This document shows positions 28,080-45,601 of a stretch of DNA of 45,601 nt, one piece after another (position 1 is the stretch's first letter; every line of letters starts with the position of its first letter). The notes under the pieces were generated by a model. That model searched no databases, was not told the origin of the DNA, and saw nothing but the letters and a program-made list of their open reading frames with translations. Position numbers and translations under genes: made by a program. The DNA comes from a virus: the IMG/VR virus record IMGVR_UViG_3300030202_001209, positions 1 to 45,601 of that record. One strand, 5' to 3'.

Positions 28080-28748
28080 ATGGATATAAAATTAAAATAT
28101 TTAAATAATTTTGAAAAGAAAATAAATAATGATATTTATAGCGAGCCTAAATCTCAATTACATTATAGCGTAATAGAGCCACAAGCTCAAAACTTTTTAA
28201 ATCAATTTGGAATTAAAGAAGATAAGTCAGTTATAGATGTAGGTTGTGGAGATGGTTATTTTTTATCTCTTTTACAAACAGCAGGATTTAAAAATTTAGT
28301 TGGCATAAATAAAAATGACGAAGATATAAAAAACTGTGCTAACTATGAATTAAAAGATATTAGAAAAACTGATATGACTTTTACAGGGATAAAAGAAAAT
28401 TTTGACGCTTTATGGTGTAGACATGTATTAGAGCATAGTCCGTATCCATATTTAACTTTACATGAATTTAATCGTTTAATTAAAATGAATGGTCATGCTT
28501 ACATAGAAGTTCCTGAAGCTGAAGGATATGTTAAACACGAGAATAATGCAAATCATTACTCTATGTTAACGAAAAGAAATTGGGTATCTTTAATTTTACG
28601 TTGTGGATTTGATATAAATAAAATACAAGATATTGATTTAAGTATAAAAAATCCAGAATTTCAAGATGGGAATCCTTATCCAGAACAATGGTGGGCTTTC
28701 TATTTAACTAAAACAGTCGAATTAAACTTTATGAAAGGAGAGTTATGA
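28080..28748 (+). CDS. class I SAM-dependent methyltransferase
   Basis: 222 residues. Motif I VIDVGCGDGYFLSLL and the post-I loop INKNDED, then FDALWCRHVLEHSPYPYLTL (Methyltransf_11-type) are clear. The C-terminal HYSMLTKRNWVSLILRCGF block is typical of small-molecule or sugar methyltransferases from surface-polysaccharide clusters. Substrate unknown. Between a helicase and a cytosine methyltransferase, close to the sugar-nucleotide gene, it could methylate a sugar or modified nucleotide, which is speculative. Confidence 0.75.
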   Translation: MDIKLKYLNNFEKKINNDIYSEPKSQLHYSVIEPQAQNFLNQFGIKEDKSVIDVGCGDGYFLSLLQTAGFKNLVGINKNDEDIKNCANYELKDIRKTDMTFTGIKENFDALWCRHVLEHSPYPYLTLHEFNRLIKMNGHAYIEVPEAEGYVKHENNANHYSMLTKRNWVSLILRCGFDINKIQDIDLSIKNPEFQDGNPYPEQWWAFYLTKTVELNFMKGEL

Positions 28749-29803
28749 AAGCAATAGGAAGTTATATATTTGCCGGTGGATTTACTATCGGCGTTAAAAA
28801 ACATTTTGATATTGAAGCACATTTAGAAGGCGATGGATATGGAGCTGATACATTTAGTTTAAATTATCCAGAAATACCAGTTTTTGTTGGTCCAGAAGAT
28901 TGGCCTACAGAAAAATATAAAGATAAAATAGATTTTGTATATGGTAATCCTCCGTGCGCTCCTTGGAGTACATTAGGTTCGGGAAGTAAAGGTGCAGATG
29001 GTTGGAAAACTGACCCTCGTATTAGTTGTTGGAATGATGTATTCTCTTTACTTTATAAAATAAAACCTAAAGCTTTAGCGATTGAGTCAGTTCCCCGTGT
29101 TTACGCAGAAACAGGAGGTAGACCAATGATAATGGATTTTACTAGAAAAGCTAATGAAGAAGGATATGCAGTTACACACTTATTGATTGACGGGCAATAT
29201 ACTGGGTTACCTCACTCAAGAAAAAGATTTTTCTTTATAGCACATAAAGGAAATTTTAATCCTCCTGCCCCTAACTGGAACCCTGCACCAAATGTAGGAG
29301 AAGTATTAGATGAATTAAAAGCAGATGGAATTGACGCAGGGCACACAGCAAGTTTAAGTGAAAGTGAAATGAAATTAACTAAACTGGCTAAACCTGGTGA
29401 ATCATTAAGAAATATATGGGAAAGTCTAAATCCACCAGAAACTTGGAAAAGGTCAACTAAAGGAAGAAAAGGAGTTATAGGCAGACCTCAATTTATGAAA
29501 TGGAGATTAACTAGAGAACAGATAATGGGAGTTATTGCTGGAAGTTTTTCTATACATCCAGAAGAAGATAGGCTTTTAGGAATACAAGAATTATGTGCTT
29601 TCTCTGGCTATCCGACAGATTATAAATTTGCTGGAGCAAAATCAGGGTGGCCTAGTTTATTAGCTAGAGGAGTGATGCCGCCAGTAGGTGAATGGGTAGC
29701 TAGAAATGTAAAAACAATGATTGAGTCAAATCAACCTTTTGAAGTTAATCACAAAATTATTGATTACCGTAAACCAACAACAGGAGATTTATTTAATGCT
29801 TAA
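28745..29803 (+). CDS. C5-cytosine methyltransferase-like protein
   Basis: 352 residues. The fold order of Dcm enzymes is recognisable though divergent: N-terminal IFAGGFTIGVKKHFD (motif I region), motif IV YGNPPCAPWSTLGSG with the nucleophile Cys71, motif VI AIESVPRV (Glu114), and motif VIII DGQYTGLPHSRKRFFFIA. Motif IX/X are weak. It would methylate cytosine C5 in DNA. In a phage that also seems to make 5-hydroxymethyl-dCMP this is paradoxical. It may act on host DNA, on residual cytosine, or on another base. Starts in an ATGA overlap with the upstream methyltransferase. Confidence 0.72.
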   Translation: MKAIGSYIFAGGFTIGVKKHFDIEAHLEGDGYGADTFSLNYPEIPVFVGPEDWPTEKYKDKIDFVYGNPPCAPWSTLGSGSKGADGWKTDPRISCWNDVFSLLYKIKPKALAIESVPRVYAETGGRPMIMDFTRKANEEGYAVTHLLIDGQYTGLPHSRKRFFFIAHKGNFNPPAPNWNPAPNVGEVLDELKADGIDAGHTASLSESEMKLTKLAKPGESLRNIWESLNPPETWKRSTKGRKGVIGRPQFMKWRLTREQIMGVIAGSFSIHPEEDRLLGIQELCAFSGYPTDYKFAGAKSGWPSLLARGVMPPVGEWVARNVKTMIESNQPFEVNHKIIDYRKPTTGDLFNA

Positions 29804-30176
29804 AGATATTGAAGAATTCCATAAAAAATTTGGATTTAAAAAAAGACAGGGTATCAAAAATAATAAAGATTTGGTAGACTTTCGGATTAAATTCTTAGAA
29901 GAAGAATTAAGAGAATTTAAAGAAGCAATTAAAGAAGAAGATGATGCGAAGGCATTAGATGCTTTAGTTGATTTAACTTATGTGGCTATCGGGACGGCTT
30001 ATCTATTTGATTATCCTTTCTGGGTTGCATGGACAGAAGTACAGAAAGCAAATATGGCAAAAGTAAGACAAGAAAGTGAACGTTCTAAATTTGATGTAAC
30101 TAAACCTAAGGGTTGGAAAGCACCTAATATAGAGCAAGTTATTAAAACATTTAAAAAGTGGAGTGCATGGTCATGA
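29796..30176 (+). CDS. MazG-like NTP pyrophosphohydrolase
   Basis: 126 residues from ATG 29796, which overlaps the upstream stop and has the RBS CAGGAGAT; an in-frame earlier start would add 25 unrelated residues. An all-alpha NTP-PPase core is visible: FRIKFLEEELREFKEAIKEE and DALVDLTYVAIGTAYLFDY supply the ExxE...DxxD metal-binding set. This superfamily includes MazG and T4 dCTPase (gp56). Next to a dCMP hydroxymethylase-like gene it may remove dCTP, or clean the pool, so that modified dCTP is used; substrate is inferred. Confidence 0.72.
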   Translation: MLKDIEEFHKKFGFKKRQGIKNNKDLVDFRIKFLEEELREFKEAIKEEDDAKALDALVDLTYVAIGTAYLFDYPFWVAWTEVQKANMAKVRQESERSKFDVTKPKGWKAPNIEQVIKTFKKWSAWS

Positions 30177-31219
30177 AAGTATTAGTAACAGGATTTACTG
30201 CGAAAGGTATAGGTAGTGGTAAAAATGTATTAGAGATTGCAACAGCAGCTAATTGTTTACCTAGAGCATTAAGAGAATGTGGAATAGAAGTTGATCATAG
30301 ACCAGTTACTCCTGGAGACGATATATCCGAATACGATAAAGTAGTTGTATTTGCTTTTGCTCCTAATTCTTTACCATCATCTTATTTATATGGAGGTCTT
30401 TATACTTTATTAAAAAGACCTGACGCATACATAGCATTAGATGATTGGCAAACTAAAGATATAAAACAAGGGTGCGGTACTTTTGCACGTGATGGCCATT
30501 GGCGATTATGGAAAAGAGTAAGTAAAGCAGGTAATTCTGTTGGTAAAAAATTCTTTAATGAAGCACAGCCCTATAAAAAAGAAATGGAAGATTTAATTAC
30601 TCAATTAGCTTTTGAACAGTGGCCATACAGAGTTCTAGCACCAGTTTATAATGGTGGAGATGTATGGCAATTAGGAATAGATTCCACAGAAATTATACCG
30701 TGGGATCCAACTCCTGTTACTGATAGTTATAAAGCAGGAAGTAAATATGATCAATCTTTATTTTCAAGAATAGATAAACATACAGGTCCTAAAAGTAAAG
30801 AATGGATAATGGCTTCGTTAATTCAAAAACAAAGTTGGTTTAAACGTCAGCATTTTGATTGGAAAGTAACGTGTTATGGTAATCCTAATCTAGGTCAAGA
30901 ACGATTAACTGAACCCGAATTATATAATGAATATCTAAGAGTAAGAGGAATATTAATACCTCCTCATTATCATACGATAAAAGGTAGCGGTTGGTGGAGA
31001 GTTCGTTATGGAATGATAGCAGACGCAGGTTGTATTGCTTATGGAGAACAAGAAGAAACTAAACTTTTTGGCGATTCATATAGAATTCATCATAGCGATA
31101 TAGAGAGAATGACCGATAAAGAATTAGATGATTTAGCTAAAGCGCAAAAAGAAGATTTTAATTTTACAGTATGGAATAAAAATAGATTAAATACGTTTAT
31201 CGGAGATTACTTTTTATGA
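30173..31219 (+). CDS. GT-B glycosyltransferase resembling T4 DNA beta-glucosyltransferase
   Basis: 348 residues from ATG 30173 (ATGA overlap; a GTG at 30158 is less likely). The layout matches T4 Bgt. An N-terminal MKVLVTGF strand is followed by a helix (NCLPRALRECGIEVDHR, compare LFKVISEMGLNVDI). Then come ISEYDKVVVFAF and AYIALDDWQTK, whose Asp90/91 is in the position of the Bgt catalytic Asp100. In the C-terminal half, CYGNPNLGQ resembles FFGNA, and WWRVRYGMIADAGCIAYGEQ resembles LRVWETMASDAVMLIDEE. The equivalent of Bgt Glu272 is not conserved. This is my motif-level comparison, not a computed alignment. Substrate probably hydroxymethylcytosine in DNA, donor unknown. Confidence 0.5.
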   Translation: MKVLVTGFTAKGIGSGKNVLEIATAANCLPRALRECGIEVDHRPVTPGDDISEYDKVVVFAFAPNSLPSSYLYGGLYTLLKRPDAYIALDDWQTKDIKQGCGTFARDGHWRLWKRVSKAGNSVGKKFFNEAQPYKKEMEDLITQLAFEQWPYRVLAPVYNGGDVWQLGIDSTEIIPWDPTPVTDSYKAGSKYDQSLFSRIDKHTGPKSKEWIMASLIQKQSWFKRQHFDWKVTCYGNPNLGQERLTEPELYNEYLRVRGILIPPHYHTIKGSGWWRVRYGMIADAGCIAYGEQEETKLFGDSYRIHHSDIERMTDKELDDLAKAQKEDFNFTVWNKNRLNTFIGDYFL

Positions 31220-31821
31220 AAGACACGGAGAATATAGTTAAAGGTATAATTATAGTAGAAGGTGCAGACTGTACTGGTAAAACTACTTTAACAAATTTAC
31301 TTCGTAAAAAATTTAAAGCACGTTATATGCATTTACGAATCCATAAGAAAATGGAAATATGGCATAGAGCAACTGTTCGTAGAGCAATAAGATTAGCTAA
31401 AGATGAGTTAGTTGTAATAGATAGACATTGGCCATCAGAAGAAGTTTATTCTTACGAAAGAGCAGATGGTCCAGAATATAATCCTACTAAGTTGTATAAA
31501 AAATTAAAGAAAGCAAATACTTTATATGTATGGTGCGCACCAGAAGATAGTGCTAGAGTTATAAAAGTACATAGAAAAAAGAAAGAAGAACGGCATGAAG
31601 AATATAGTGATATTACTCGAATTGTCGATAGATACAAACGTTCATGGTATGGTTTAAACTATGAGCATGATAACTTTCTTAAATCTCTTGGAGAGTTAAG
31701 ATGGCGAAAAAACTTCATACGATATGACGTTTTTAAAGAAGGTCATAAGATTGACGATAAGTCTTATGATATAATTAATCGACTACGATATTTGAGAGGA
31801 GAATCAGTATGGACGGTTTAG
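31216..31821 (+). CDS. deoxynucleoside monophosphate kinase (thymidylate-kinase-like)
   Basis: 201 residues. P-loop VEGADCTGKTT (16-24), DRHWPSEEVYS equivalent to the DR motif of thymidylate kinase, and a Lys/Arg/Glu-rich lid (RKKKEERHEEYSDITR). Next to the hydroxymethylase gene (13-nt overlap) it fits the role of T4 gp1, which phosphorylates hydroxymethyl-dCMP on the way to the triphosphate; it could also be an ordinary dTMP kinase. Confidence 0.72.
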   Translation: MKDTENIVKGIIIVEGADCTGKTTLTNLLRKKFKARYMHLRIHKKMEIWHRATVRRAIRLAKDELVVIDRHWPSEEVYSYERADGPEYNPTKLYKKLKKANTLYVWCAPEDSARVIKVHRKKKEERHEEYSDITRIVDRYKRSWYGLNYEHDNFLKSLGELRWRKNFIRYDVFKEGHKIDDKSYDIINRLRYLRGESVWTV

Positions 31822-32609
31822 CAGCAGATAATGTTTGGAACGATGCTATTTTAGACATTCAAAGTGGAATAGAATCCGCACCTCGTGGTATGAAAACACG
31901 AGAAAAAATAAATCATACTACGATGTGCGATATGAGATACCCTATCGTTACTAACACAAGAAGATTATTAGGCTATAAATTTATGGCACAAGAAGCTTAT
32001 TGGATATTAAGTGGTGATAATAGATTAAGTACAATAGAGCCTTACTCTAAGATGATTGGTAAATTTAGTGATGATAAGTATTTCTTTCGAGGGGCATATG
32101 GTCCTAAAATTATAGACCAACTTCAGTATGTATGCAGATCATTAAAAGAAGATAGAAACACGAGACAAGCAGTTATAAATATTTGGAGAGAAAGTCCTTA
32201 CGATACTAATGATATACCTTGCACGGTATCTTTTCAGTTTTTAATTCGTCAAGATAAATTACATGTCATAGCTAACATGAGGTCTAACGATTTATGGTTA
32301 GGTTGGCCTTATGATAATTTTAATTTTTCTATGCTTGGCGCATACGTTGCTTTATTATTAAAAGACATTTATAATATAGAAGTAGGATTAGGAATAACGA
32401 CTATTAATGCAGGGTCCCGTCATCTATACGAGCCTGATTTTGAATCAGCAGATATGTGTACTCGTTCTAATTATGAAGATTATGTGAACTATAAACCATT
32501 GAATTTAAAGGAATATAATAGTGCATCTGATTTCGTACATTTTTTAGGACAAGCTAATCATATGGATTATAGTGGGTTTGGACATGAACTTTTCAGCAAG
32601 GCCAAGTAA
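31809..32609 (+). CDS. thymidylate-synthase-family enzyme, predicted dCMP hydroxymethylase
   Basis: 266 residues. TS-family motifs are complete: EAYWILSGDNR (Glu62), IPCTVSFQFLI (nucleophile Cys138), NMRSNDLWLG (Arg158, Ser159, Asp161) and INAGSRHLY (His205, Tyr207). The residue that reads the pyrimidine is Asp169 in WPYDN, where thymidylate synthases have Asn (PFN; E. coli Asn177). Asp here is the hallmark of dCMP-specific enzymes such as T4 gp42, and NMRSND and the GSxH(L/V)Y segment also match gp42. So the product is probably 5-hydroxymethyl-dCMP, or 5-methyl-dCMP. A good RBS (GAGGAGAA) precedes the ATG. Confidence 0.72.
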   Translation: MDGLAADNVWNDAILDIQSGIESAPRGMKTREKINHTTMCDMRYPIVTNTRRLLGYKFMAQEAYWILSGDNRLSTIEPYSKMIGKFSDDKYFFRGAYGPKIIDQLQYVCRSLKEDRNTRQAVINIWRESPYDTNDIPCTVSFQFLIRQDKLHVIANMRSNDLWLGWPYDNFNFSMLGAYVALLLKDIYNIEVGLGITTINAGSRHLYEPDFESADMCTRSNYEDYVNYKPLNLKEYNSASDFVHFLGQANHMDYSGFGHELFSKAK

Positions 32610-33045
32610 ACACGAAACTTTTTTAGACATCGCTAAGACTGTCTCGGAACAAGCAACATGCATCCGGCGTAACGTTGGATGTGTGTTAGTCAATTCTAAA
32701 AATCATATTCTTGCTACAGGATATAATGGAGTTCCTGCAGGAGCAGTACACTGTTTAGATTTACCATGTAGTGGAGCAGAGTTTCCATCAGGAGAAGGAT
32801 TAAATTCTTGCGAAGCGATTCACGCAGAACAGAATGCATTACTTCAATGTAAAGATATTTATGATATTGAAAAATGTTACTGCACAGTAAGTCCATGTAT
32901 GACGTGTGTAAAATTATTATTAAATACTTCTTGTAGTATTTTAATTTTTCCTACTTTATATACAGACGTAGAACCATTAGAACTTTGGAAAAAATCAGAA
33001 AGAGAGTATATTATTTATGAACGACCTATTCAAACCCGCCAGTAA
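32584..33045 (+). CDS. dCMP deaminase
   Basis: 153 residues from ATG 32584 (a GTG four codons upstream is also possible). N-terminal RPSKHETFLDIAKTVSEQAT then RRNVGCVLVN are standard. The zinc site HAEQNAL (His80, Glu82) and PCMTCVK (Cys105, Cys108) is intact. It converts dCMP to dUMP, feeding thymidylate synthesis, and in hydroxymethylcytosine phages it balances the C/T pool. It starts within the hydroxymethylase gene (26-nt overlap), consistent with coupled expression, and overlaps the polymerase by 29 nt. Confidence 0.92.
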   Translation: MNFSARPSKHETFLDIAKTVSEQATCIRRNVGCVLVNSKNHILATGYNGVPAGAVHCLDLPCSGAEFPSGEGLNSCEAIHAEQNALLQCKDIYDIEKCYCTVSPCMTCVKLLLNTSCSILIFPTLYTDVEPLELWKKSEREYIIYERPIQTRQ

Positions 33046-36951: not shown

Positions 36952-36980
36952 GTTTAACGTGTTTTAAAAAAGTTTATTAT
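36952..36980 (+). promoter_or_regulatory. promoter-like sequence, repeated family (member 2)
   Basis: GTTTAA at 36952-36957, exactly 17 nt, TATTAT at 36975-36980. The spacer contains CGTGTTTTAA, as in members at 39749 and 41960, and the initial transcribed region reads AAGAAATAACC, followed by a GAAAGGAAAA RBS for the gene at 37012. Confidence 0.62.
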
Positions 36981-37011
36981 AAGAAATAACCATAAAGAAA
37001 GGAAAAACATT

Positions 37012-38033: not shown

Positions 38034-38124
38034 AAAGAAAAAAACTAAATTTGTATTAAATCAACAGACTACTATCATTATATTATTATTGTTATTAGTA
38101 TTAAAACAATACGGAATATTATAA
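38026..38124 (+). CDS. 32-residue basic TM peptide
   Basis: MSKKKKTKFVLNQQTTIIIL then LLLLVLKQYGIL: a Lys-rich cytoplasmic N-terminus plus one TM helix. It overlaps the upstream stop by 8 nt and shares TAATG with the downstream start. Confidence 0.5.
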   Translation: MSKKKKTKFVLNQQTTIIILLLLLVLKQYGIL

Positions 38125-38594: not shown

Positions 38595-38618
38595 CTAGTT
38601 GTTATTGTAACGTTTTTA

Positions 38619-38849
38619 GCTAGAATCAAAATTCTTTTGATCAAAGTTATTTGTATTCTAGCGAAACTGGCAGCGTGGTACGGGTGTTGAAGGTATACGT
38701 CCTTAATTCAAGCCAGTATAAAAATGCTATGTAAGTAGCAATGAAGCAAAGCGAAGAACCTTACTTGAGCAGCTGAGACACTGCGCAAGATAGAGTGGAG
38801 TAAGTCAATTAATTATAAGCTAAGTGATTGTTTATTCCTTGCTCCACTC
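38619..38849 (+). ncRNA. candidate structured RNA 1, with 16S-rRNA-like segment
   Basis: Fills the 273-nt gap between 38594 and 38868. Helices visible on the + strand are GCTAGAAT (38619-38626) with ATTCTAGC (38655-38662), around or alternating with ATCAAAA/TTTTGAT (38625-38641), and ACTGGC (38666-38671) with GCCAGT (38712-38717). Further helices are TGCTA/TAGCA (38725-38740), CTTGAGCAG (38764-38772) with CTGCGCAAG (38781-38789), and a 12-bp stem GAGTGGAGTAAG (38793-38804) with CTTGCTCCACTC (38838-38849). Positions 38743-38764 end in GCGAAGAACCTTAC, the conserved 16S rRNA helix-31 region sequence. No ORF of note. Strand is inferred from neighbours. Confidence 0.55.
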
Positions 38850-38867
38850 ATTAAAAGAAAGGAAAAT

Positions 38868-39065
38868 ATGACAGACTCACATCAGATTATTGACGCACTT
38901 GAAGATAAGATAACGATGTTAGAAAAAGATAATAAAAAGCAACGTGATTTACTTATTTTTATCCTTCGTGACTTAGATAAGCACTATAATGTAGAAGTTA
39001 ATCACACTGATAGTATTTTAGGTATAATTAGGTATAAATTAGATTATATTTTAAATAAACAATAG
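38868..39065 (+). CDS. 65-residue coiled-coil protein
   Basis: Strong GAAAGGAAAA RBS. Sequence SHQIIDALEDKITMLEKDNK then QRDLLIFILRDLDKHYNVEV predicts a coiled coil. It directly follows candidate RNA 1 and may share its promoter. Function unknown. Confidence 0.58.
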   Translation: MTDSHQIIDALEDKITMLEKDNKKQRDLLIFILRDLDKHYNVEVNHTDSILGIIRYKLDYILNKQ

Positions 39066-39076
39066 AAAGGAAAATT

Positions 39077-39253
39077 ATGTTAAAAGTTACAGCAATATTT
39101 AGTGTTAGTATAACAATGTCGTTATCAATATATTTATTTAGTTATGATATATTTAATATTACTTCAGTAGCCTGGATTCATTATATTATACCCTTTACTG
39201 TAGGCGTAGTATTCGCAGCGAGTAGTGTAATGTTATTCTTAGATAGGTCATGA
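39077..39253 (+). CDS. 58-residue two-TM protein
   Basis: RBS GAAAGGAAAA. The peptide has two hydrophobic segments (VTAIFSVSITMSLSIYLF and YIIPFTVGVVFAASSVMLFL) separated by a short loop, ending LDRS. ATGA overlap with the next gene. Probable inner-membrane protein of unknown role. Confidence 0.55.
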   Translation: MLKVTAIFSVSITMSLSIYLFSYDIFNITSVAWIHYIIPFTVGVVFAASSVMLFLDRS

Positions 39254-39744
39254 ATATATTTTACTTACATCCACACCCTTTAGTCGCAGCACATTATCAT
39301 TGCGATAAGCACGTACCGAAGATGATATTAGAATCAGCTCAGATGTTAAGTATAGTCGCACGTTCTAATGGCTTTGACGTTGGCTATAACATGAATGTCA
39401 ATGGCGCTTTCTCCAAGCATCCCGCTACATTATGGACAGGTCAATCTCGTAGGCACTACGATTTCTTATGCGAATTAGCAGATTACTTATGTGACGAGTT
39501 CTACATACGATTTAATTCTAAAGAACATAAAACTAGACCTCTTATCGCAGAACTTACTGCAGACGATATACGCCAAAAAATACCAGATACTGGTTGGCAT
39601 GCTCCACCTCAATGTATGCCAGAAGAATATAAAGGTGCTGACTCTGTAGAGGCTTACAGAAAGTATTATCAAGCAGAAAAGTCTTATTTCGCTAAATGGA
39701 ATAAAGGTCGTAACGCCCCATATTGGTGGGTAGATATAGAATAA
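39250..39744 (+). CDS. pyrimidine-dimer-glycosylase-like phage protein
   Basis: 164 residues. NIFYLHPHPLVAAHYHCDKH then KMILESAQMLSIVAR, HPATLWTGQSRRHYDFL, PPQCMPEEYK and EAYRKYYQAEKSYFAKWNKG are conserved blocks of a protein widespread in marine phages. The plan resembles the T4 endonuclease V (Pyr_excise) family in the spacing of helices and the YxKYY end, but the catalytic N-terminal Thr2 of T4 endoV is not evident. DNA repair function is therefore tentative. Confidence 0.5.
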   Translation: MNIFYLHPHPLVAAHYHCDKHVPKMILESAQMLSIVARSNGFDVGYNMNVNGAFSKHPATLWTGQSRRHYDFLCELADYLCDEFYIRFNSKEHKTRPLIAELTADDIRQKIPDTGWHAPPQCMPEEYKGADSVEAYRKYYQAEKSYFAKWNKGRNAPYWWVDIE

Positions 39745-39748
39745 ATAG

Positions 39749-39778
39749 GTTTTTAGTGTTTTAAAAAAATAGTATAAT
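39749..39778 (+). promoter_or_regulatory. promoter-like sequence, repeated family (member 3)
   Basis: GTTTTT at 39749-39754, 18-nt spacer containing AGTGTTTTAA, consensus TATAAT at 39773-39778, then AAGTTTAACC and a GAAAGGAAAA RBS for the gene at 39802. Confidence 0.65.
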
Positions 39779-39801
39779 AAGTTTAACCAGAAAGGAAAAA
39801 T

Positions 39802-40140
39802 ATGTTAGAAGTAAAGAAATTATCATTCAAAAAATTATTAGAATTGAATGCTAAAGCAAAATATGGAGATAAAAATAGGTATATCTCATTAGATTGGCTT
39901 AAAGATAACGAAGATAAAATGTTTCCCACAGGTAAAGTAGATGGGATTATGAGTTATTCTAAGTTATCAGACATTACATTCTTAATACCATGGAAATTTT
40001 GTCATAACGATAGTCACTGGCGATGTCAAATAATGTATTCTGATAACGAAAGCGATACACCGTTATCTTTAGACATGGACTTTAGCGATTACAATAAACT
40101 TAAATCAGCAATTAGAGGAGAAAAACATGAAATCAATTGA
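39802..40140 (+). CDS. hypothetical protein
   Basis: 112 residues under its own promoter-like sequence. Sequence LEVKKLSFKKLLELNAKAKY, then SLDWLKDNEDKMFPTGKVDG, FCHNDSHWRCQIMYSDNESD. No family recognised; mixed alpha/beta character. Overlaps the next gene by 14 nt. Confidence 0.58.
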   Translation: MLEVKKLSFKKLLELNAKAKYGDKNRYISLDWLKDNEDKMFPTGKVDGIMSYSKLSDITFLIPWKFCHNDSHWRCQIMYSDNESDTPLSLDMDFSDYNKLKSAIRGEKHEIN

Positions 40141-40279
40141 TAGATTTTGGAAACATGTATCTATTTTGCAAAGAGCAATAGATAATTCAAATTCAACACA
40201 GCAACGTAACTGGTGGCTCTTGCGACTTGCTAACTTTATGTTAAAGTTAGAATGTTATGAGAAAAAAGCATTAAATTAA
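40127..40279 (+). CDS. 50-residue hypothetical protein
   Basis: ATG with RBS GAGGAGAA, inside the end of the upstream gene. MKSIDRFWKHVSILQRAIDN then QQRNWWLLRLANFMLKLECY; Trp-rich and helical. Followed by the second structured non-coding stretch. Function unknown. Confidence 0.52.
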   Translation: MKSIDRFWKHVSILQRAIDNSNSTQQRNWWLLRLANFMLKLECYEKKALN

Positions 40280-40285
40280 CCTGTA

Positions 40286-40480
40286 TATATAGAGGGCGAA
40301 ATGATTTTACTGATTTTTCATTTTACTAAATGGCAATCCCTAATCCCAATCGTTGATTCTATATATCCACTACTAAAAACTAGGGATTACTAGTGATATT
40401 TACAAGTAATCCCTCTAATCTCCCGAGGCTAGACGCAATCTTAGGTCACTGACTCTGAGTTGTGAATTGGTCTCTATATA
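40286..40480 (+). ncRNA. candidate structured RNA 2
   Basis: Occupies most of the 215-nt gap 40280-40494. The ends pair: TATATAGAG (40286-40294) with CTCTATATA (40472-40480), 9 bp perfect, closing the whole element. Inside, AGGGATTACT (40382-40391) and AGTAATCCCT (40405-40414) form a perfect 10-bp hairpin with a 13-nt loop, and CATTT/AAATG (40319-40332) forms a small hairpin. No ORF. The right end overlaps a possible -10 (TATAAT 40477-40482) for the 21-residue gene, so a regulatory leader is an alternative reading. Confidence 0.5.
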
Positions 40481-40494
40481 ATAAAGGAAAAACA

Positions 40495-40560
40495 ATGGAT
40501 TTTTTTACTATTTTGACTATCTTAATTGTCGGCGGTATCATATTAATGCTTAATTCGTAA
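40495..40560 (+). CDS. 21-residue hydrophobic peptide
   Basis: ATG with a strong AAAGGAAAA RBS. Peptide MDFFTILTILIVGGIILMLN then S: a single TM helix. Same plan as the 18-residue peptide at 44163-44219, each preceded by the standard leader of this region. Translation is supported by the RBS; function unknown. Confidence 0.5.
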   Translation: MDFFTILTILIVGGIILMLNS

Positions 40561-40567
40561 AATAAAG

Positions 40568-40597
40568 GTTTTAAATGGATTTAATAAATTTTATAAT
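40568..40597 (+). promoter_or_regulatory. promoter-like sequence, repeated family (member 4)
   Basis: GTTTTA at 40568-40573, 18-nt spacer, consensus TATAAT at 40592-40597, then TAATTATACGCAGAAAGGAG leading to the ATG at 40625. Confidence 0.62.
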
Positions 40598-40624
40598 TAA
40601 TTATACGCAGAAAGGAGAATCAAT

Positions 40625-41002
40625 ATGCAAACACAATCTGCTATAACTAGCTCCGGACAAAAACCCGCAGTTAGAAAGACTACTCCAGAGGCTAAAAAAG
40701 CCAACGGTAAGGCAAAACCAAAAGTAATTAATACACCTAGTGATAAGACTGGTGTTTTAAAGTACGATGGCGATGCGAGAATACAACTACTTGCTCCTAA
40801 AAACCCTAAACGAGTAGGGTGCGAGGGCTGGAAAAGATTTAATCTTTACAAAAATGGCATGAAGATTAAAGATTTTGTAAAAGCAGGAGGTAAGACAATA
40901 GATTTAGACTGGGACAGAGATAGAGGCTTTATCGCTACTGAAGATAGAGACAAAGTCGGGTCGCAGAGTAAGTCGCCTAAATCAACTTTCAATATGAAAT
41001 AG
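40625..41002 (+). CDS. basic hypothetical protein
   Basis: 125 residues with RBS AGAAAGGAGAA. The N-terminal 45 residues are Lys/Pro/Ala-rich and probably disordered (RKTTPEAKKANGKAKPKVIN). The C-terminal domain (GVLKYDGDARIQLLAPKNPK, then GWKRFNLYKNGMKIKDFVKA) resembles a small beta-alpha phage domain seen in other marine phages. Function unknown; nucleic-acid binding is plausible from its charge. Confidence 0.58.
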   Translation: MQTQSAITSSGQKPAVRKTTPEAKKANGKAKPKVINTPSDKTGVLKYDGDARIQLLAPKNPKRVGCEGWKRFNLYKNGMKIKDFVKAGGKTIDLDWDRDRGFIATEDRDKVGSQSKSPKSTFNMK

Positions 41003-41042
41003 TTGTGTACATGGCGTCAAAACATATTAGTCTTGTTTTGTT

Positions 41043-41066
41043 AAAGGTATACTACTGTACCTTTTT
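41043..41066 (+). terminator. probable intrinsic terminator
   Basis: AAAGGTA (41043-41049) pairs with TACCTTT (41058-41064), 8-nt loop, followed by a short T run (to 41066). Located 40 nt after the basic-protein gene. Low GC stem, so efficiency is uncertain. It also begins candidate RNA 3. Confidence 0.5.
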
Positions 41067-41071
41067 CCTCC

Positions 41072-41189
41072 GTAGAGTAGGGGGTTCCATGGTGGAGCCC
41101 TCTACAATTAGAGATTCGCAAGAAACTGTGCTTGCGAGGTCATGAGCAACAGACGTGTTGTTAGCTGAAAAATGGAGGATAGTCCATTT
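41072..41189 (+). ncRNA. candidate structured RNA 3
   Basis: The 303-nt gap 41003-41305 has four successive hairpins and no ORF. GTAGA (41072-41076) plus GGGTTCC (41082-41088) pair with GGAGCCC (41094-41100) plus TCTAC (41101-41105). TCGCAAG (41116-41122) pairs with CTTGCGA (41131-41137). CAACA pairs with TGTTG (41147-41160). AAATGGA (41170-41176) pairs with TCCATTT (41183-41189). Local GC is higher than the surroundings, as expected for a folded RNA in an AT-rich genome. The first arm-pair region includes a GUUCC/GGAGC stem with one G-U. Confidence 0.52.
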
Positions 41190-41249
41190 GACCATTAGGC
41201 AAGTTGAAACGATACATACTACCTATAAAAGCTCCGAGATTTAATTTTG

Positions 41250-41278
41250 GTTTTAGTTGTTAATAAAAAGTTTATTAT
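41250..41278 (+). promoter_or_regulatory. promoter-like sequence, repeated family (member 5)
   Basis: GTTTTA at 41250-41255, 17-nt spacer, TATTAT at 41273-41278, then TAATAATAACAATAGAAAGG leading into the RBS. The TATTATTAA...ATAAC stretch is shared with the member at 41960. Confidence 0.63.
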
Positions 41279-41305
41279 TAATAATAACAATAGAAAGGAA
41301 AACAT

Positions 41306-41587
41306 ATGGCTTTATTAGTGTTTAGAAAGATTTCAAGAGTTACTATTTATGAACAGCATAAATTACCTCGCCATGTCTTTAATATAGAATTTTATGACGG
41401 TACTCACGGTACTCTCACTGAAGAAGATTTTGATAAACTTAAGGCTCAGCATACTAAGCAATTAGATAACGATAAGAAAAAGGCTGATAAGATTTATCAA
41501 GAAGATATGGAAAGAGGCGAGATGGCTGCAGAAGCAGGAATGCTACACGGTATCGATGCTTATAACGAAATGAATGGAGATAGCTAA
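41306..41587 (+). CDS. hypothetical protein
   Basis: 93 residues, RBS GAAAGGAAAA. N-terminal beta part (LVFRKISRVTIYEQHKLPRH, NIEFYDGTHGTLTEEDFDKL) followed by a charged helix. No family recognised. The stop lies 1 nt before the following ATG. Confidence 0.56.
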   Translation: MALLVFRKISRVTIYEQHKLPRHVFNIEFYDGTHGTLTEEDFDKLKAQHTKQLDNDKKKADKIYQEDMERGEMAAEAGMLHGIDAYNEMNGDS

Positions 41588-41588
41588 T

Positions 41589-41957
41589 ATGGGATATACT
41601 AATTACTGGCACCAAAAAAGAAGTTTCACTGATGCCGAGTGGAAAGAGTTAACAGAAGAATATGACTACTTAAAAGAGTGTGGTAGAATAAAACCTTTAG
41701 ATGATAATACCGACCAAATAGCTTTTAATGCTAAAGGTGATGGTTGCGAGACCTTCGTGTTAAATAAAAATTTAGATGAGTATTTTAATAGTGAGCACAT
41801 GGGCTCTTATCGCAAAGAGAAATACGAAAAAGATGGTTATCATTTTGATTTCTGTAAAACTCGTATGTTTCCCTACGATATAGATGTTTGGCATATGTTA
41901 ACGGTAGCACGTGTAGTTGCTCCAGAAAGTATAATTGAAATATCAAGAGATAGATAA
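41589..41957 (+). CDS. conserved phage protein of unknown function
   Basis: 122 residues from ATG 41589. The start MGYTNYWHQKRSFTDAEWKE is a conserved N-terminus of a widespread phage family, which favours this ATG over one 15 nt upstream. Other blocks: IAFNAKGDGCETFVLNKN, FCKTRMFPYDIDVWHMLTVA. This family is often found with early or nucleotide-metabolism genes. No catalytic residues recognised. Confidence 0.65.
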   Translation: MGYTNYWHQKRSFTDAEWKELTEEYDYLKECGRIKPLDDNTDQIAFNAKGDGCETFVLNKNLDEYFNSEHMGSYRKEKYEKDGYHFDFCKTRMFPYDIDVWHMLTVARVVAPESIIEISRDR

Positions 41958-41959
41958 TG

Positions 41960-41988
41960 GTTTTATAGTGCTTTTAATAGTTTATTAT
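41960..41988 (+). promoter_or_regulatory. promoter-like sequence, repeated family (member 6)
   Basis: GTTTTA at 41960-41965, 17-nt spacer TAGTGCTTTTAATAGTT, TATTAT at 41983-41988, then TAACTATAACAAAAAGAAAG into the RBS of the gene at 42019. Confidence 0.65.
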
Positions 41989-42018
41989 TAACTATAACAA
42001 AAAGAAAGCGAGAATGAT

Positions 42019-42294
42019 ATGAAAGAAGGACGATTAAAATATGCCGAACTTTCTAATTATGACGAAGAAGCCGGACCTTTACTTTTTGAGGGACAAGTCG
42101 TTGGAGATTGGAGAGAAGAACACGATAGTGCTTTAGGAACATATAAATATATTAGCCTTAACACTGAATTACCCATCAGACCTGGGGATAATATACAAGC
42201 TCAATTTCACGATCATTACTTTAGTGAACAAGATATTATTGATAACATCTTAAAAATAAGAAAGAGAGGAAAACCAAATGCCCTTAACAGATAA
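42019..42294 (+). CDS. hypothetical protein
   Basis: 91 residues with RBS AAAGCGAGAA. Sequence GRLKYAELSNYDEEAGPLLF then PIRPGDNIQAQFHDHYFSEQ. No family recognised. Overlaps the next gene by 17 nt. Confidence 0.55.
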   Translation: MKEGRLKYAELSNYDEEAGPLLFEGQVVGDWREEHDSALGTYKYISLNTELPIRPGDNIQAQFHDHYFSEQDIIDNILKIRKRGKPNALNR

Positions 42295-42487
42295 ACATAT
42301 AAAACCTAAATTAACTGAAAAGCAACAAGATGATGCTTTCGTTTGGTGGTGCAATAAAAATGAAGAAGAACTTAATGTACATTTTGATAAGATTAAAATA
42401 ACAGATGTAGGCCAAATGAAAATCATTTCTAGAGGGATGTGGCTAACTAAATTAGAGGAATTAGGATTAAGGAGTTGTAACTCATGA
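42278..42487 (+). CDS. small hypothetical protein
   Basis: 69 residues with RBS AAGAGAGGA. PLTDKHIKPKLTEKQQDDAF then WWCNKNEEELNVHFDKIKIT; helical, Trp/Asn/Glu-rich. Overlaps both neighbours. Function unknown. Confidence 0.52.
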   Translation: MPLTDKHIKPKLTEKQQDDAFVWWCNKNEEELNVHFDKIKITDVGQMKIISRGMWLTKLEELGLRSCNS

Positions 42488-42801
42488 AAGCAGAAGAAAT
42501 ACAAAAATTAGTTGTCGTTGATATAAAAGAAAGCAAATTTGGTATCACTAAGAAAATAGGGATGTGCAAAGAACTTGGACATTTTGCTACTGTATATCAT
42601 ATTCTAAATCCGTATCCTGGAAAAATCACTCCTAAAGAATTAACAAAAGTAGAATTATACGATGGTTGGGAGGACACTATAGTTTATATTAAAGGTCATT
42701 TAACTTTGGATAACATCTCCACTTACCTTACTTACTTAACAAACTGTGTAGAAGATGATACAGAATTCCAATTTAAATCTCCCGATTTATTCAAGATGTA
42801 A
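42484..42801 (+). CDS. hypothetical protein
   Basis: 105 residues starting in an ATGA overlap, RBS AAGGAG. EEIQKLVVVDIKESKFGITK, then YHILNPYPGKITPKELTKVE, GWEDTIVYIKGHLTLDNIST. No family recognised. Last gene before the packaging module. Confidence 0.54.
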   Translation: MKAEEIQKLVVVDIKESKFGITKKIGMCKELGHFATVYHILNPYPGKITPKELTKVELYDGWEDTIVYIKGHLTLDNISTYLTYLTNCVEDDTEFQFKSPDLFKM

Positions 42802-42817
42802 ATAAAAACCTATACAT

Positions 42818-42848
42818 TTAACCTCTGATAAGCTAAATTAGAGGTTAA
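42818..42848 (+). promoter_or_regulatory. hairpin that hides the small-terminase Shine-Dalgarno
   Basis: TTAACCTCT (42818-42826) pairs perfectly with AGAGGTTAA (42840-42848). The 3' arm contains AGAGG, the only Shine-Dalgarno-like sequence before the ATG at 42853, so a folded leader would block initiation. Could alternatively be a protein operator. Confidence 0.55.
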
Positions 42849-42852
42849 TTAT

Positions 42853-43290
42853 ATGGATAACATTATAGAATTTTCTGAGGTTGAGAATAAGATTTTATCA
42901 GACAAAGAAAAGAAGTTCGTCAATAACATTATATCAGGTTTAACCAAGAAAAGAGCGGCATTAGAAGCTGGTTATGCCGAATCGTCAGCTCACGTACAAG
43001 CCACCCGCCTACTAAAGAAGGATAAAATCCTGAGGGCGGTGAGCCGAGGGCGGGCGGTCCATGCCCAACAGTCCATTCACACTCTCGACAAGGAGGTTGA
43101 GAAGCTTGACGTGTTGTATGAGGCGGCTGTTGCGAAGAAACAACTCGGAGCAGCGGTGCAAGCTGCACGGTTGAAGGCCCAACTCTTGGGGTACTTGGTT
43201 GAGAAGAAGGAAGTCAAGCACTCCGTCCTTGACACGATGAGTGATGATGAGTTGATCACCTACCTTGACAAGTTAGCCTCCGCAGGCTGA
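42853..43290 (+). CDS. terS: terminase small subunit
   Basis: 145 residues. LSDKEKKFVNNIISGLTKKR then AALEAGYAESSAHVQATRLL is the N-terminal helix-turn-helix typical of the Terminase_2 family; a coiled oligomerisation region (LDKEVEKLDVLYEAAVAKKQ) follows. It recognises the packaging site and regulates the large subunit encoded about 2 kb downstream. Composition changes abruptly inside the gene: the first ~140 nt are AT-rich like the genome, the rest is about 60% GC (37 of 60 bases in 43021-43080), using GCG, CGG, AAG and GTG codons. This suggests a chimeric gene joined at about 42995. Confidence 0.82.
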   Translation: MDNIIEFSEVENKILSDKEKKFVNNIISGLTKKRAALEAGYAESSAHVQATRLLKKDKILRAVSRGRAVHAQQSIHTLDKEVEKLDVLYEAAVAKKQLGAAVQAARLKAQLLGYLVEKKEVKHSVLDTMSDDELITYLDKLASAG

Positions 43291-43390
43291 GTGTTGTTGC
43301 GGGAGGCAAGAGCCACGGGCTCAGCAGCCTTCCTCCACCGTCCGCCCGCCTGGCGGCGGTATGATGCGGCGTGAGGCGGCGGCCTTTATA
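43291..43390. other. GC-rich non-coding tail after terS with hairpins
   Basis: The GC-rich block continues about 100 nt past the terS stop and ends sharply at GGCC followed by TTTATATATA (near 43386). It contains GAGCC-acg-GGCTC and CCGCC-tgg-CGGCGG stems and repeated GGCGG units. No T run follows directly, so it is not a standard terminator. Possible packaging signal or remnant of the imported segment. Confidence 0.5.
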
Positions 43391-43434
43391 TATATTTCAT
43401 CAAACAAAGTTATTAACATTTATTATTTTTAATT

Positions 43435-43463
43435 GTTTTATTTTGCGTAGAATAATATATATT
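43435..43463 (+). promoter_or_regulatory. promoter-like sequence, repeated family (member 7)
   Basis: GTTTTA at 43435-43440, 17-nt spacer, TATATT at 43458-43463, upstream of the gene at 43507 with its weaker AGAAAGAA leader. Embedded in the AT-rich stretch that follows the GC-rich block. Confidence 0.5.
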
Positions 43464-43506
43464 TATACCATAGCAATTAAGCTATAAAAAACAGAAAGAA
43501 TAATTT

Positions 43507-43893
43507 ATGACTCAGAATAAAAAGTTCCCAACATCTCTAAAAGTATTAGAGAACCGTGCAATCATATTTCTTTATATTAACCAAAAGAAACCATCAGGAA
43601 AAGCCTGGGCACGATACGACCGATATAAAACAGCGCATAGTATTACAGAGGCCGTGGACCGTGGCTTCACAGCTTTGGACATGCAATACGAAACGAAACA
43701 AAACAACCGTTTCAAGAAGTTCGTAACCATGTGTTTTATCGAGGGTGTTAATGTTACCAAACAAACTAAAGACATCTTAGAGGTCGTCCTTAAAAAGAAC
43801 AAAGAAGTTCTCAAGGATTTACCGAAAGCTATTCAAGCCAAAGCACAAGCCAACATCGATAAATTCGAAAAGCTTGCAGCAGCTATAAAATAA
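43507..43893 (+). CDS. hypothetical protein, paralogue of the 44264 gene
   Basis: 128 residues. N-terminus QNKKFPTSLKVLENRAIIFL, middle DMQYETKQNNRFKKFVTMCF and C-terminal helices (VVLKKNKEVLKDLPKAIQAK) correspond to the protein at 44264-44659 (NKKFPSSLKVL; YDTKENNRFSTI; IIEENKKYLNDKENTI). The gene is noticeably richer in G+C (22 of 60 bases in 43741-43800) than its paralogue. No domain recognised. It ends just before a strong terminator. Confidence 0.6.
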   Translation: MTQNKKFPTSLKVLENRAIIFLYINQKKPSGKAWARYDRYKTAHSITEAVDRGFTALDMQYETKQNNRFKKFVTMCFIEGVNVTKQTKDILEVVLKKNKEVLKDLPKAIQAKAQANIDKFEKLAAAIK

Positions 43894-43900
43894 CATTATT

Positions 43901-43932
43901 CGGGGGCGTCACACAGGCGCCCTCGTTTTTTT
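43901..43932 (+). terminator. strong intrinsic terminator
   Basis: CGGGGGCG (43901-43908) pairs with CGCCCTCG (43918-43925) through one G-U, with a 9-nt loop, followed by TTTTTTT (to 43932). The best Rho-independent terminator in the window, closing the gene at 43507-43893. Confidence 0.88.
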
Positions 43933-43943
43933 GTTATTGAGCC

Positions 43944-44008
43944 TTGAGCATCCGCACTCCGCCGCCTTGCGGTTGAGCATTAAGATTAAGTCATTGAGCA
44001 TTGAGCAT
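43944..44008. repeat. four TTGAGCAT direct repeats (iteron-like)
   Basis: TTGAGCAT occurs at 43944-43951, 43973-43980, 43994-44001 and 44001-44008; the last two share one base. A related TTGAGCC lies at about 43936. CCGC/GCGG segments lie between copies. Such clustered direct repeats near terminase genes or origins often bind an initiator or the small terminase. Function here is inferred. Confidence 0.72.
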
Positions 44009-44020
44009 CAACCCTCCGCC

Positions 44021-44042
44021 TTAGACTTACGTGTAAGTCTAA
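44021..44042. repeat. near-perfect palindrome, 10-bp arms
   Basis: TTAGACTTAC (44021-44030), GT, GTAAGTCTAA (44033-44042). No T run follows, so an operator or recognition site is likelier than a terminator. Directly downstream of the TTGAGCAT repeats. Confidence 0.75.
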
Positions 44043-44112
44043 CAATAAATAAATACAGATAATAAAAATATAAAATACTAAACCAAACTAAAATTTTAAC
44101 GATTTTATAATT

Positions 44113-44142
44113 GTTTATAGTGATTTTTAGATAGATTATTAA
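44113..44142 (+). promoter_or_regulatory. promoter-like sequence, repeated family (member 8)
   Basis: GTTTAT at 44113-44118, spacer 18 nt beginning AGTGATTTTTAG, TATTAA at 44137-44142, then TAGATATAGAAAGGAAAA to the ATG at 44163. Confidence 0.52.
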
Positions 44143-44162
44143 TAGATATAGAAAGGAAAAAT

Positions 44163-44219
44163 ATGACGATTATTATAATTATTATCGCTTATTTCTTAGT
44201 TTTAAGCTTTACTTTTTAA
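44163..44219 (+). CDS. 18-residue hydrophobic peptide
   Basis: ATG with a strong GAAAGGAAAA RBS and a promoter-like sequence upstream. Product MTIIIIIIAYFLVLSFTF, entirely hydrophobic: a minimal TM helix. The short length makes this uncertain, but RBS and spacing match the real genes of this region, and a 21-residue analogue exists at 40495-40560. Confidence 0.42.
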   Translation: MTIIIIIIAYFLVLSFTF

Positions 44220-44263
44220 TAAATAATCTATAAAAATATAGATAGAAAGGAGAAATATAGAAA

Positions 44264-44659
44264 ATGGAAAATAGTAATAAAAATAAAAAATTTCCTTCTT
44301 CGCTTAAAGTATTAGCGTCTAATAAAATTCTTTTTAGATTAATAAATATAAAAAGAGAAAATACTAGATCGTACGATATATTCGAAGAAAGTAAATTTTC
44401 GACTACTATTAAAGATTTATTTACTTTAACTAATTATCGTAAAGTAGATTATTCTTACGATACTAAAGAGAATAATCGCTTTTCTACTATACGTTTAGTA
44501 GTAGAAAATAAAAACGATACTAAAGAAAATAAAGAAGAAATTAAATCTATTATCGAAGAAAATAAAAAGTATTTAAACGATAAAGAAAATACTATTCGTA
44601 ATAGAAAAGCTATCGAAGAAAATATTTTATTCTTCGAAGAAAAAATTTCTACTCTTTAA
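44264..44659 (+). CDS. hypothetical protein of restricted amino-acid alphabet
   Basis: 131 residues, RBS GAAAGGAG. Paralogue of the protein at 43507-43893 (NKKFPSSLKVL; YDTKENNRFS; helical Glu/Lys-rich C-terminus). The protein has no Gly, Gln, His, Cys or Trp, one Pro, and Met only at the start; Thr is always ACT and no codon contains TG or CA after the start codon. About 17% GC (10 of 60 bases in 44521-44580). So the coding sequence obeys a dinucleotide constraint. Function unknown. Confidence 0.6.
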   Translation: MENSNKNKKFPSSLKVLASNKILFRLINIKRENTRSYDIFEESKFSTTIKDLFTLTNYRKVDYSYDTKENNRFSTIRLVVENKNDTKENKEEIKSIIEENKKYLNDKENTIRNRKAIEENILFFEEKISTL

Positions 44660-44682
44660 TTACTAAATATATATTTAATAAT

Positions 44683-44718
44683 AAATCTCTCTAATTAATT
44701 TTAGAGAGATTTTTTTTA
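44683..44718 (+). terminator. intrinsic terminator
   Basis: AAATCTCTCTAA (44683-44694), loop TTAATT, TTAGAGAGATTT (44701-44712), then a T run to 44718. Perfect 12-bp stem 23 nt after the stop of the 131-residue gene. Confidence 0.85.
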
Positions 44719-44748
44719 TTTTTAGAATTAGTAATCTAGTAAAAAAAT

Positions 44749-44801
44749 AAATCGTATTAAGTTTATACTAAAAAAAATAGTATAAGTTTCTTTTACGATT
44801 T
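44749..44801. repeat. nested inverted repeats
   Basis: Outer arms AAATCGTA (44749-44756) and TACGATTT (44794-44801); inner arms TTATACTA (44763-44770) and TAGTATAA (44778-44785) around a run of seven A. The non-coding stretch 44719-44877 also holds AAGC-gtaa-GCTT and a possible promoter (TTATCA at 44831-44836, 17 nt, TATAAA at 44854-44859) for the terminase genes. Confidence 0.6.
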
Positions 44802-44877
44802 CGAAAAAGTTGGTGGATTAAGCGTAAGCTTTATCACTATTGACTGTTTTGTGTATAAATAAAATATATAATAATTT

Positions 44878-45129
44878 GTGATTAAAGTGTGGTTTCTATT
44901 AGTGTTATTAAATTTTCCTGAGTATCCTATGATATATTATAAGGGAGCTAAAGGGTTTCTTTCTCTGGAAGAGTGCGAAGAACAGAGAGTGCCTATAGAA
45001 AATTATATGGAAAAGCAAGAACTAAACCGAGGAAGAACTGCTATATCAATTGAAAGTTATTGTTTACCTTTCAATGTATTTACGTTTAATAAAGGAAATA
45101 ATGAAACAGGAACTGGTACAGAAAGCTAG
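44878..45129 (+). CDS. small secreted or membrane-anchored protein
   Basis: 83 residues, GTG start with poor RBS. N-terminal IKVWFLLVLLNFPEYPMIYY is a signal-peptide-like or anchor segment, followed by a short Cys-containing region (LSLEECEEQRVPIENYMEKQ; SIESYCLPFNVF). Same general plan as the gene at 19609-19848. It overlaps the large terminase start by 29 nt. Role unknown. Confidence 0.5.
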   Translation: MIKVWFLLVLLNFPEYPMIYYKGAKGFLSLEECEEQRVPIENYMEKQELNRGRTAISIESYCLPFNVFTFNKGNNETGTGTES

Positions 45130-45601
45130 AAACATTCTTTTAGATCCGAAAGTATCTAAAAATGTAAAAGAACAAGTTTTCGAAATATTAGAAAAACAAA
45201 GAACTAAAGCTACCAATAGTGCCGCAAAATCTGGAATTTTGGATTATGCTAAACATATGTATCCAGGGTACAATGATCCTGCGCATATAAAACTTATTGG
45301 ACAAAACCTAGAAAGTTTAGAGAAAGGTGAGATTGACAGATTAGCTATCTTTATGCCACCACGACATGGCAAGTCCATGCTCTGCTCTGAATTTTTTCCA
45401 GCGTGGTATCTTGGACGTAACCCTAGAAATTTTGTAATTCAATCCACTTATGCTCAAGAACTAGCTGATGATTTTGGACGCAAGGTGCGTAACCAATTAA
45501 AATCAGAAGATTTTATGAGAGTCTTTGAAGGTGTAGGTCTAAGAGAAGATTCAAGCTCAGCGAAACGTTTTCACACAGTACATGGCGGGACGTATAGCGC
45601 C
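45101..45601 (+). CDS. terL: terminase large subunit (3' end beyond window)
   Basis: ATG 45101 with RBS AAAGGA; the frame is open for all 167 remaining codons. After an N-terminal helical region (FEILEKQRTKATNSAAKSGI, then DYAKHMYPGY) comes the ATPase Walker A PPRHGKSMLCSEFFPAWYLG (86-105) and the adenine-motif/strand FVIQSTYAQELADDFGRKVR, typical of terminase large subunits. The Walker B and nuclease domains lie outside the window. It is the motor that packages DNA with the terS product. Confidence 0.92.
   Translation, partial: MKQELVQKARNILLDPKVSKNVKEQVFEILEKQRTKATNSAAKSGILDYAKHMYPGYNDPAHIKLIGQNLESLEKGEIDRLAIFMPPRHGKSMLCSEFFPAWYLGRNPRNFVIQSTYAQELADDFGRKVRNQLKSEDFMRVFEGVGLREDSSSAKRFHTVHGGTYSA

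Follow-up and report, generated by a model that had tools for sequence, protein, structure and literature searches.

Restriction-site avoidance in early regions is known from phage T7, in the DNA before ocr, and from phage T5, in the first-step-transfer DNA. Phage T4 is transcribed by the host polymerase despite its glucosylated DNA. Leading regions of plasmids carry anti-defence functions (PMC11541004), and hypermodification with a dinucleotide context (TG/TC) has been described for the 5hmdU-derived phages M6, ViI and phiW-14 (PMC6449724). Modified cytosine occurs in T4 (glucosyl-hmC), RB69 (arabinosyl-hmC, PMC6024577) and the Shewanella phage Thanatos (pentose on C, PMC12838424).

The current study concerns a tract in a 45.6-kb virus record (the window, i.e. 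the whole analysed stretch of 45,601 nucleotides) from a group of uncultured, marine phages, in which the four words TG, CA, GG and CC are nearly absent. The nearest known kind is restriction-site avoidance in first-acting DNA: here, too, a word is significantly under-represented in one region, and the tract would share with T7, T5 and the plasmids the clearing of a first-needed region that may encode counter-defence. What sets it apart is that the word has only two bases, that the purge is near absolute and confined to one unit, that the coding strand matters more, giving a strand order, and that cytosine-modification genes co-occur with it. With M6, ViI and phiW-14 the shared element would be a phage modification with a dinucleotide target, but theirs is on T, with no purged unit reported, whereas here the enzymes suggest cytosine and the context is read from what is absent. 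T4, RB69 and Thanatos have a similar hydroxymethylase-type enzyme, kinase, dCMP deaminase and UDP-sugar epimerase/dehydratase-like gene (here at 25641-26591); unlike in those phages, the module includes a C5-methyltransferase, and no glycosyltransferase was found in it. We know of no other natural gene under a near-absolute dinucleotide ban that extends across coding and non-coding DNA, and a literature search, outside which most subscription papers lay, found no similar case.

Extent and composition of the tract

The original prediction described positions 44267-44810 as lacking TG, CA and GG, with one CC and common CG, and both counts and shuffles bore this out. Over these 544 bp TG, CA and GG were each found 0 times and CC once (at 44294), and in 20,000 mononucleotide shuffles of the same sequence TG and CA together came to 42.5 on average and never to fewer than 23 (observed, 0). 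The longest TG/CA-free gap in the window was this tract (546 bp); the runners-up measured 101 and 81 bp, the former being the left portion of the same tract. The predicted interval was purged as described, and the true start lies approximately 145 bp earlier, at 44122. For the full tract (44122-44810, 689 bp, no strand assigned), which was delimited by word counts and is kept in relatives, observed and expected numbers were 2 and 27.1 for TG, 0 and 25.6 for CA, 3 and 8.4 for GG, and 1 and 4.7 for CC. Summed over the 689 bp, 2 occurrences of TG and CA were seen against approximately 53 expected, which counts against chance.

The few words that remained have a recognizable function. Both TGs belong to ATG starts (44163 and 44264), the GGs are those of two Shine-Dalgarno sites (44155 and 44249) and an ATGG start (44266), with no others, and the sole CC lies in a conserved proline codon, TTT-CCT (the Pro of KKFP). 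The exceptions sit at indispensable words (ATG, Shine-Dalgarno, the KKFP proline), which is selection with functional exemptions.

When the same protein was encoded with synonymous codons according to the codon usage of the genome, the four words occurred 28.8 times on average (minimum 17 in 2000 runs) compared with 3 observed, and amino acid composition and ordinary codon usage are therefore excluded as the cause. In a per-gene scan the purge was unique to the gene of the tract (ORF2; z about -5 for TG and -4.7 for CA) among 64 genes of the window and 106 of a complete relative (G002). TG and CA reappear immediately past the tract toward terL, and the DNA flanking it on both sides was unpurged in all relatives. 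Chance and base composition were ruled out by the shuffles, the synonymous simulation and the genome-wide gene scan together.

CG occurred 19 times in 44267-44810, i.e. 3.6 times the base-composition expectation, and was considered as an independent signal. This was rejected: approximately half of the enrichment is forced by the avoidance of T|G (8 of the 16 CGs in ORF2 are C|G codon junctions), and CG is raised in the neighbouring paralogue as well. Across the window, CG counts were several-fold lower in the structural half (1-8500) than in the early half (33000-44000). A second site poor in TG and CA, the divergent intergenic region at 21373-21454, was also discarded, as it merely has a GC content of 10%.

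Organization of the locus

The tract lies between the two terminase genes, in agreement with the predicted location near the packaging site. From left to right the locus consists of terS, a 128-aa gene, a GC-rich terminator, a TTGAGCA array, a candidate promoter, ORF1, ORF2, a terminator, a direct repeat, a promoter-like element and terL. The small terminase gene terS is found at 42853..43290 on the plus strand (PF03592, E 4e-9), as are the features given below with coordinates of this form unless stated otherwise. The 128-aa gene (43507..43893) is a paralogue of ORF2 (33% identity, E 3e-16) with ordinary dinucleotides, and served as an internal control: the four words occurred 72 times where 53 were expected.

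The TTGAGCA array (43940..44011), recognized in the sequence between the paralogue and the tract, is a candidate terminase-binding (pac) or packaging site, or alternatively a set of replication iterons. In one relative (L014:942-1032) there are 13 copies of the 7-bp repeat TTGAGCA/CATTGAG with 97% matches, and copy number differs among relatives. At the left edge of the tract, alignment points to a putative promoter (44111..44146) with a -35-like TTGTTT, a spacing of 17-18 nt and an AT-rich -10 element. The TTGTTT element recurs in most relatives (by alignment, and also in L014, L018 and L020); a consensus promoter scan did not call the putative promoter, which is weak by consensus. Downstream of it, ORF1 (44163..44219) encodes an 18-aa hydrophobic peptide, MTIIIIIIAYFLVLSFTF, and has its own Shine-Dalgarno site (AAAGGAA), which is kept in relatives together with the start.

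ORF2 (44264..44659), identified as a paralogue of 43507-43893, encodes 131 aa without Gly, Gln, His, Cys or Trp. The suggestion that these residues are missing as a consequence of the purge is plausible, given that all five occur in the neighbouring paralogue, whose dinucleotides are normal. An AF2 model of the protein reached a pLDDT of 85, and searches for its fold or family in Pfam, PHROG, PDB and BFVD gave no match, nor were relatives detected among 84,980 bacterial and archaeal genomes searched for hosts and prophages. An Rfam search, and a DNA blast of the tract region against phage records, gave no match either.

ORF2 is followed by a predicted intrinsic terminator (44683..44712), the stem of which (CTCTCTAA/TTAGAGAG, then a T run) is built without GG or CC; the equivalent terminators in L014-L018 are likewise free of both. 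At the right edge of the tract, between this terminator and the terL promoter, lies a direct repeat, TCGTATTAAGTTT ... TAGTATAAGTTT (44752..44789, no strand assigned), which is kept throughout the clade, has its exact unit nowhere else in the window, and is a candidate operator. Just outside the tract, a conserved promoter-like element with normal TG and CA usage, TATTGACTGTTTTGTGTATAAATAA (44838..44862), precedes the terL operon. The large terminase gene terL (45101..45601) is truncated by the end of the window (MKQELV...PPRHGKS) and is homologous to the 503-aa terL of G002.

According to sequence features and alignments, the boundaries of the tract coincide with those of a transcription unit. 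The tract is best explained as one small predicted transcription unit consisting of ORF1, ORF2, sometimes a third ORF, the terminator and the operator-like repeat.

Conservation and rank of the avoided words

A comparison of related phages had been proposed, and in these the absence of TG and CA persisted while the protein diverged. The rule was kept between terS and terL in more than 20 independently assembled relatives, with protein identities down to approximately 34%. In 11 relatives with 88-96% protein identity the TG/CA-free run was kept, and in six others with 57-61% identity it was kept equally strictly. The remaining members of the clade were recovered by a scan anchored on terS, and every lineage covering the locus was depleted there, down to approximately 34% ORF2 identity. 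Free use of the words by relatives, which would have spoken against the rule, was not found for TG; CA was tolerated in three lineages. That several contigs stop within the tract or close to it could suggest an assembly or sequencing artefact, but this was refuted by the independent relatives: more than 20 assemblies made separately from different samples concur, and their coding evolution is coherent. Artefact or chance can be given next to no probability.

In two relatives (L016 and L017) an extra, unrelated ORF of 89 aa (ORF3) lies inside the tract. After its ATG this ORF contains 0 of the four words where 15.5 were expected, and the whole tract, here 0.86 kb long, has no GG and no CC, its sole TG being the ATG of the extra ORF. 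The non-coding 3' DNA is also purged (shuffle P of approximately 0.001 or less in 8 of nine 3' segments, the exception being the CA-tolerant L072). In two-fold and Ile codons the third-position pyrimidine followed the next base without exception: all 49 that precede a G were C, and all 139 that precede an A were T. Because an unrelated ORF, non-coding 3' DNA and codon choices all obey the rule, the purge is tied to its location and not to the gene, works at the level of nucleic acid and is selected. A composition driven by the protein was ruled out by the codon-junction words, the 3' DNA and the unrelated ORF, all of which obey. The original claim that the constraint spans a gene, a terminator and non-coding DNA, and acts on nucleic acid rather than on protein, was upheld.

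The position between terS and terL, beside the TTGAGCA array and with a direct repeat at the right end, would suit a sequence-specific protein coating or special DNA mechanics near the packaging site. This explanation is improbable: with an inserted gene the purge lengthens to 0.86 kb, it is deterministic at the dinucleotide level with no requirement for periodicity, and the exemption of start codons and Shine-Dalgarno sites points to expression. CG and TA, which are flexible steps like CA and TG, are free or enriched, which the earlier suggestion of special mechanics leaves unexplained.

A mutational process that destroys TG and CA had also been considered. In fungi, RIP acts on CA/TG in duplicated DNA, and a locus-specific mutation of this type, e.g. 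C deamination in CA and CC on both strands after duplication, would be consistent with ORF2 being a paralogue of the neighbouring gene, with the loss of CA/TG in a duplicated gene and with the AT-richness of the tract. It is nevertheless very improbable. The tract is in a phage, the non-duplicated, unrelated ORF3 is equally purged while the adjoining paralogue is unmutated, functional words are kept, and the adjacent DNA is untouched in all relatives. Replacements at third positions frequently run from T to C (TT[T>C]|GAA), against the direction of C deamination, and the difference between template and coding strand is opposite to that of R-loop mutagenesis. The deterministic T-to-C before G, the retained functional sites and the confinement to one unit are left unexplained by such a process.

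Some further observations were made on ORF2. Between the window (43850-44960) and L003 (900-2050) the DNA flanking the tract is nearly identical and ORF2 differs by several per cent, in part through codons swapped at more than one base, as if the gene had been exchanged or were diversifying. The 5' parts of ORF2 in L001 (3001-3137) and L071 (2909-3270) lack TG and use CA, and the 3' parts are fully purged, a pattern that points to mosaic recombination within the tract gene.

The lineages differ in which words they avoid. All four were absent in the window group and in L014-L019, L075 and L076 have no TG and no CA and keep one GG, and in L078-L086 most TG and CA are gone while GG and CC are used. 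CA-tolerant segments were found in the 5' third of L001, the 5' part of L071, and the ORF2 body and 3' DNA of L072. When the three were pooled, TG was seen 0 times against approximately 32 expected and CA 33 times against 53 expected; in the 3' DNA of L072 the observed and expected numbers were 0 and 2.7 for TG, and 5 and 4.0 for CA. On the coding strand the rank of avoidance is TG > CA > GG/CC. As coding-strand TG is always avoided while CA and GG/CC are tolerated in some lineages, template-strand CA is the core target. The rule had been described as strand-symmetric. CA and CC are indeed purged as well in many lineages, but coding-strand TG is purged where CA is kept, and a pure double-stranded-DNA rule is too simple.

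The strict avoidance of TG on the RNA strand, together with edges that match the transcription unit, could indicate that it is the transcript that avoids UG (then CA, GG and CC), and so escapes an endoribonuclease, or else spurious starts and ribosome binding. TG and GG are start-codon and Shine-Dalgarno words, and the exceptions are exactly the true ones. An effect at the RNA level is nonetheless unlikely. CA and CC are the exact reverse complement of TG and GG, which would be a coincidence for RNA, is expected for DNA, and points to DNA. T|G is avoided (49 of 49) even at junctions that could not give rise to a start or a Shine-Dalgarno site, and the purge does not stop at the terminator. We know of no ribonuclease with the set UG/CA/GG/CC.

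Cytosine-modification genes and a proposed role of the unit

Next to the DNA polymerase gene, the window contains a module for a C5-methyltransferase, a MazG-like pyrophosphohydrolase, a phrog_14998 protein, a kinase, a thymidylate-synthase-like enzyme and a dCMP deaminase. The C5-cytosine methyltransferase (28745..29803, PF00145, E 7e-27) has the catalytic PPC. Its motif VI reads ESV instead of ENV and it sits in a hydroxymethylcytosine-type module; since C5 is expected to be occupied, the enzyme could have an unusual reaction. The conserved phrog_14998 protein (30158..31219), homologous to Aeromonas and Gordonia phage proteins, is a candidate second DNA-modification enzyme; searches bearing on a glycosyltransferase identity gave no match in Pfam, NCBIfam, PDB or by fold (AF2 pLDDT 55). 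It is followed in the cluster by a nucleotide kinase of the thymidylate-kinase-like type (31216..31821), the thymidylate-synthase-like enzyme (31809..32609) and the dCMP deaminase (32572..33045). The best solved (PDB) match of the thymidylate-synthase-like enzyme was the CMP 5-hydroxymethylase MilA (E 1.3e-19), and in the alignment it has Asp at the position of Asn177 of thymidylate synthases. Asn177 is the residue of dUMP-specific enzymes, and we take Asp in its place as a rule pointing to a cytosine substrate. The protein is a probable dCMP hydroxymethylase. In the replication region, a sugar-nucleotide epimerase/dehydratase (PF16363/PF01370), resembling UDP-xylose synthase and dTDP-glucose dehydratase models below the cut-off, could supply a sugar for DNA modification.

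The C5-methyltransferase, phrog_14998 and hydroxymethylase genes were present in all six long members of the clade (G000, G002, G007, G010, G013 and G014). In G010 (L040, 9129-10179) the C5-methyltransferase lies in two frames and contains a TGA, owing to a real disruption or an assembly error. The presence of module and tract was compared across one clade and four outgroups: no comparable tract was found in HTVC119P, AXL3 and MW202510, where the hydroxymethylase is present and the C5-methyltransferase and phrog_14998 are absent, nor in 023Pt_psg01, which has a related polymerase and primase and lacks the module. HTVC200P and S0112 also had no comparable tract; positions 17829-18163 of S0112 are CA-poor but contain TG and GG, and were rejected as just AT-rich.

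Avoidance of a modification or nuclease target was the best of the options originally listed, and is here sharpened to a template-strand CA context. Our tentative reading, held at somewhat less than even confidence, is that the unit stays readable because its template cytosines are not in the context that would lead to their modification or damage. The phages would carry modified cytosine through the predicted dCMP hydroxymethylase, the C5-methyltransferase and the conserved partner enzyme. If placed on template-strand C, more strongly in a CA than in a CC context, a bulky modification would hinder the host RNA polymerase, or alternatively would expose the DNA to modification-directed attack. 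Selection would have cleared the unit of 5'-CA-3', and more weakly of 5'-CC-3', on the strand read by RNA polymerase, and in many lineages the non-template strand as well, start codons and Shine-Dalgarno sites being the unavoidable price. The unit could then be read whether the DNA has just entered or is fully modified, and would make small proteins before others are expressed well. We infer from the sequence evidence that the agent may be a cytosine modification in CM context, that it may act via transcription, and that the unit may be needed early. Bacterial RNA polymerase is known to be stopped by bulky modifications of pyrimidines, and T7 RNA polymerase is more sensitive to them on the template strand (PMC11550810).

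A modified or attacked CA context is the simplest model that fits the rank, strand, edges and exemptions. Against it, T4 is transcribed although its DNA is glucosylated, a fully hydroxymethylated C would leave the C5-methyltransferase little to do, a second, weaker effect must be assumed for the coding-strand purge seen in most lineages, and in the lineage of the window the purge runs approximately 95 bp beyond the terminator.

The same facts would also fit an anti-defence unit without the CA or CC target at which a host or phage enzyme cuts, nicks or excises, e.g. a nickase recognizing a very short word or a glycosylase acting on modified C. The unit would encode the counter-defence and would have to stay undamaged as long as the enzyme is active. 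The locus is a small variable cassette, with an optional ORF3, a mosaic ORF2 and a changing ORF1, as anti-defence loci often are, and a template-strand lesion would likewise give the TG-first order. To our knowledge no dinucleotide-specific nuclease of such a kind has been described. Glycosylases that excise glucosyl-hmC and leave abasic sites are a known defence (PMC11078745). We regard this explanation as possible and doubtful. There are thousands of CA/TG sites elsewhere in the genome, and shielding 0.7 kb would therefore be useful only if the unit acts first or alone. In addition, G002 (64,233 bp, loci L048-L051) assembles as a complete-looking circle with 96-bp identical ends and its junction inside the purged tract; a fixed first-entering end is thus unsupported.

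Under the preferred reading of a unit kept readable amid modified cytosine, the tract may be a 'plaintext' unit, rewritten codon by codon, that would be expressed first and would open the genome or disarm a modification-directed defence, a proposal that we hold at somewhat less than even probability. The tract is a natural experiment in which selection recorded the recognition rule of an agent, with its strand and rank order. As the rule is recorded, the agent becomes testable, whether it is a modification enzyme whose context is a dinucleotide or a defence that recognizes two bases. Other phages can also be searched for the same signature, a single unit locally purged of dinucleotides. If the transcription reading is true, hypermodification has a cost, in that a readable page must be kept, and the tract names the proteins that open the genome.
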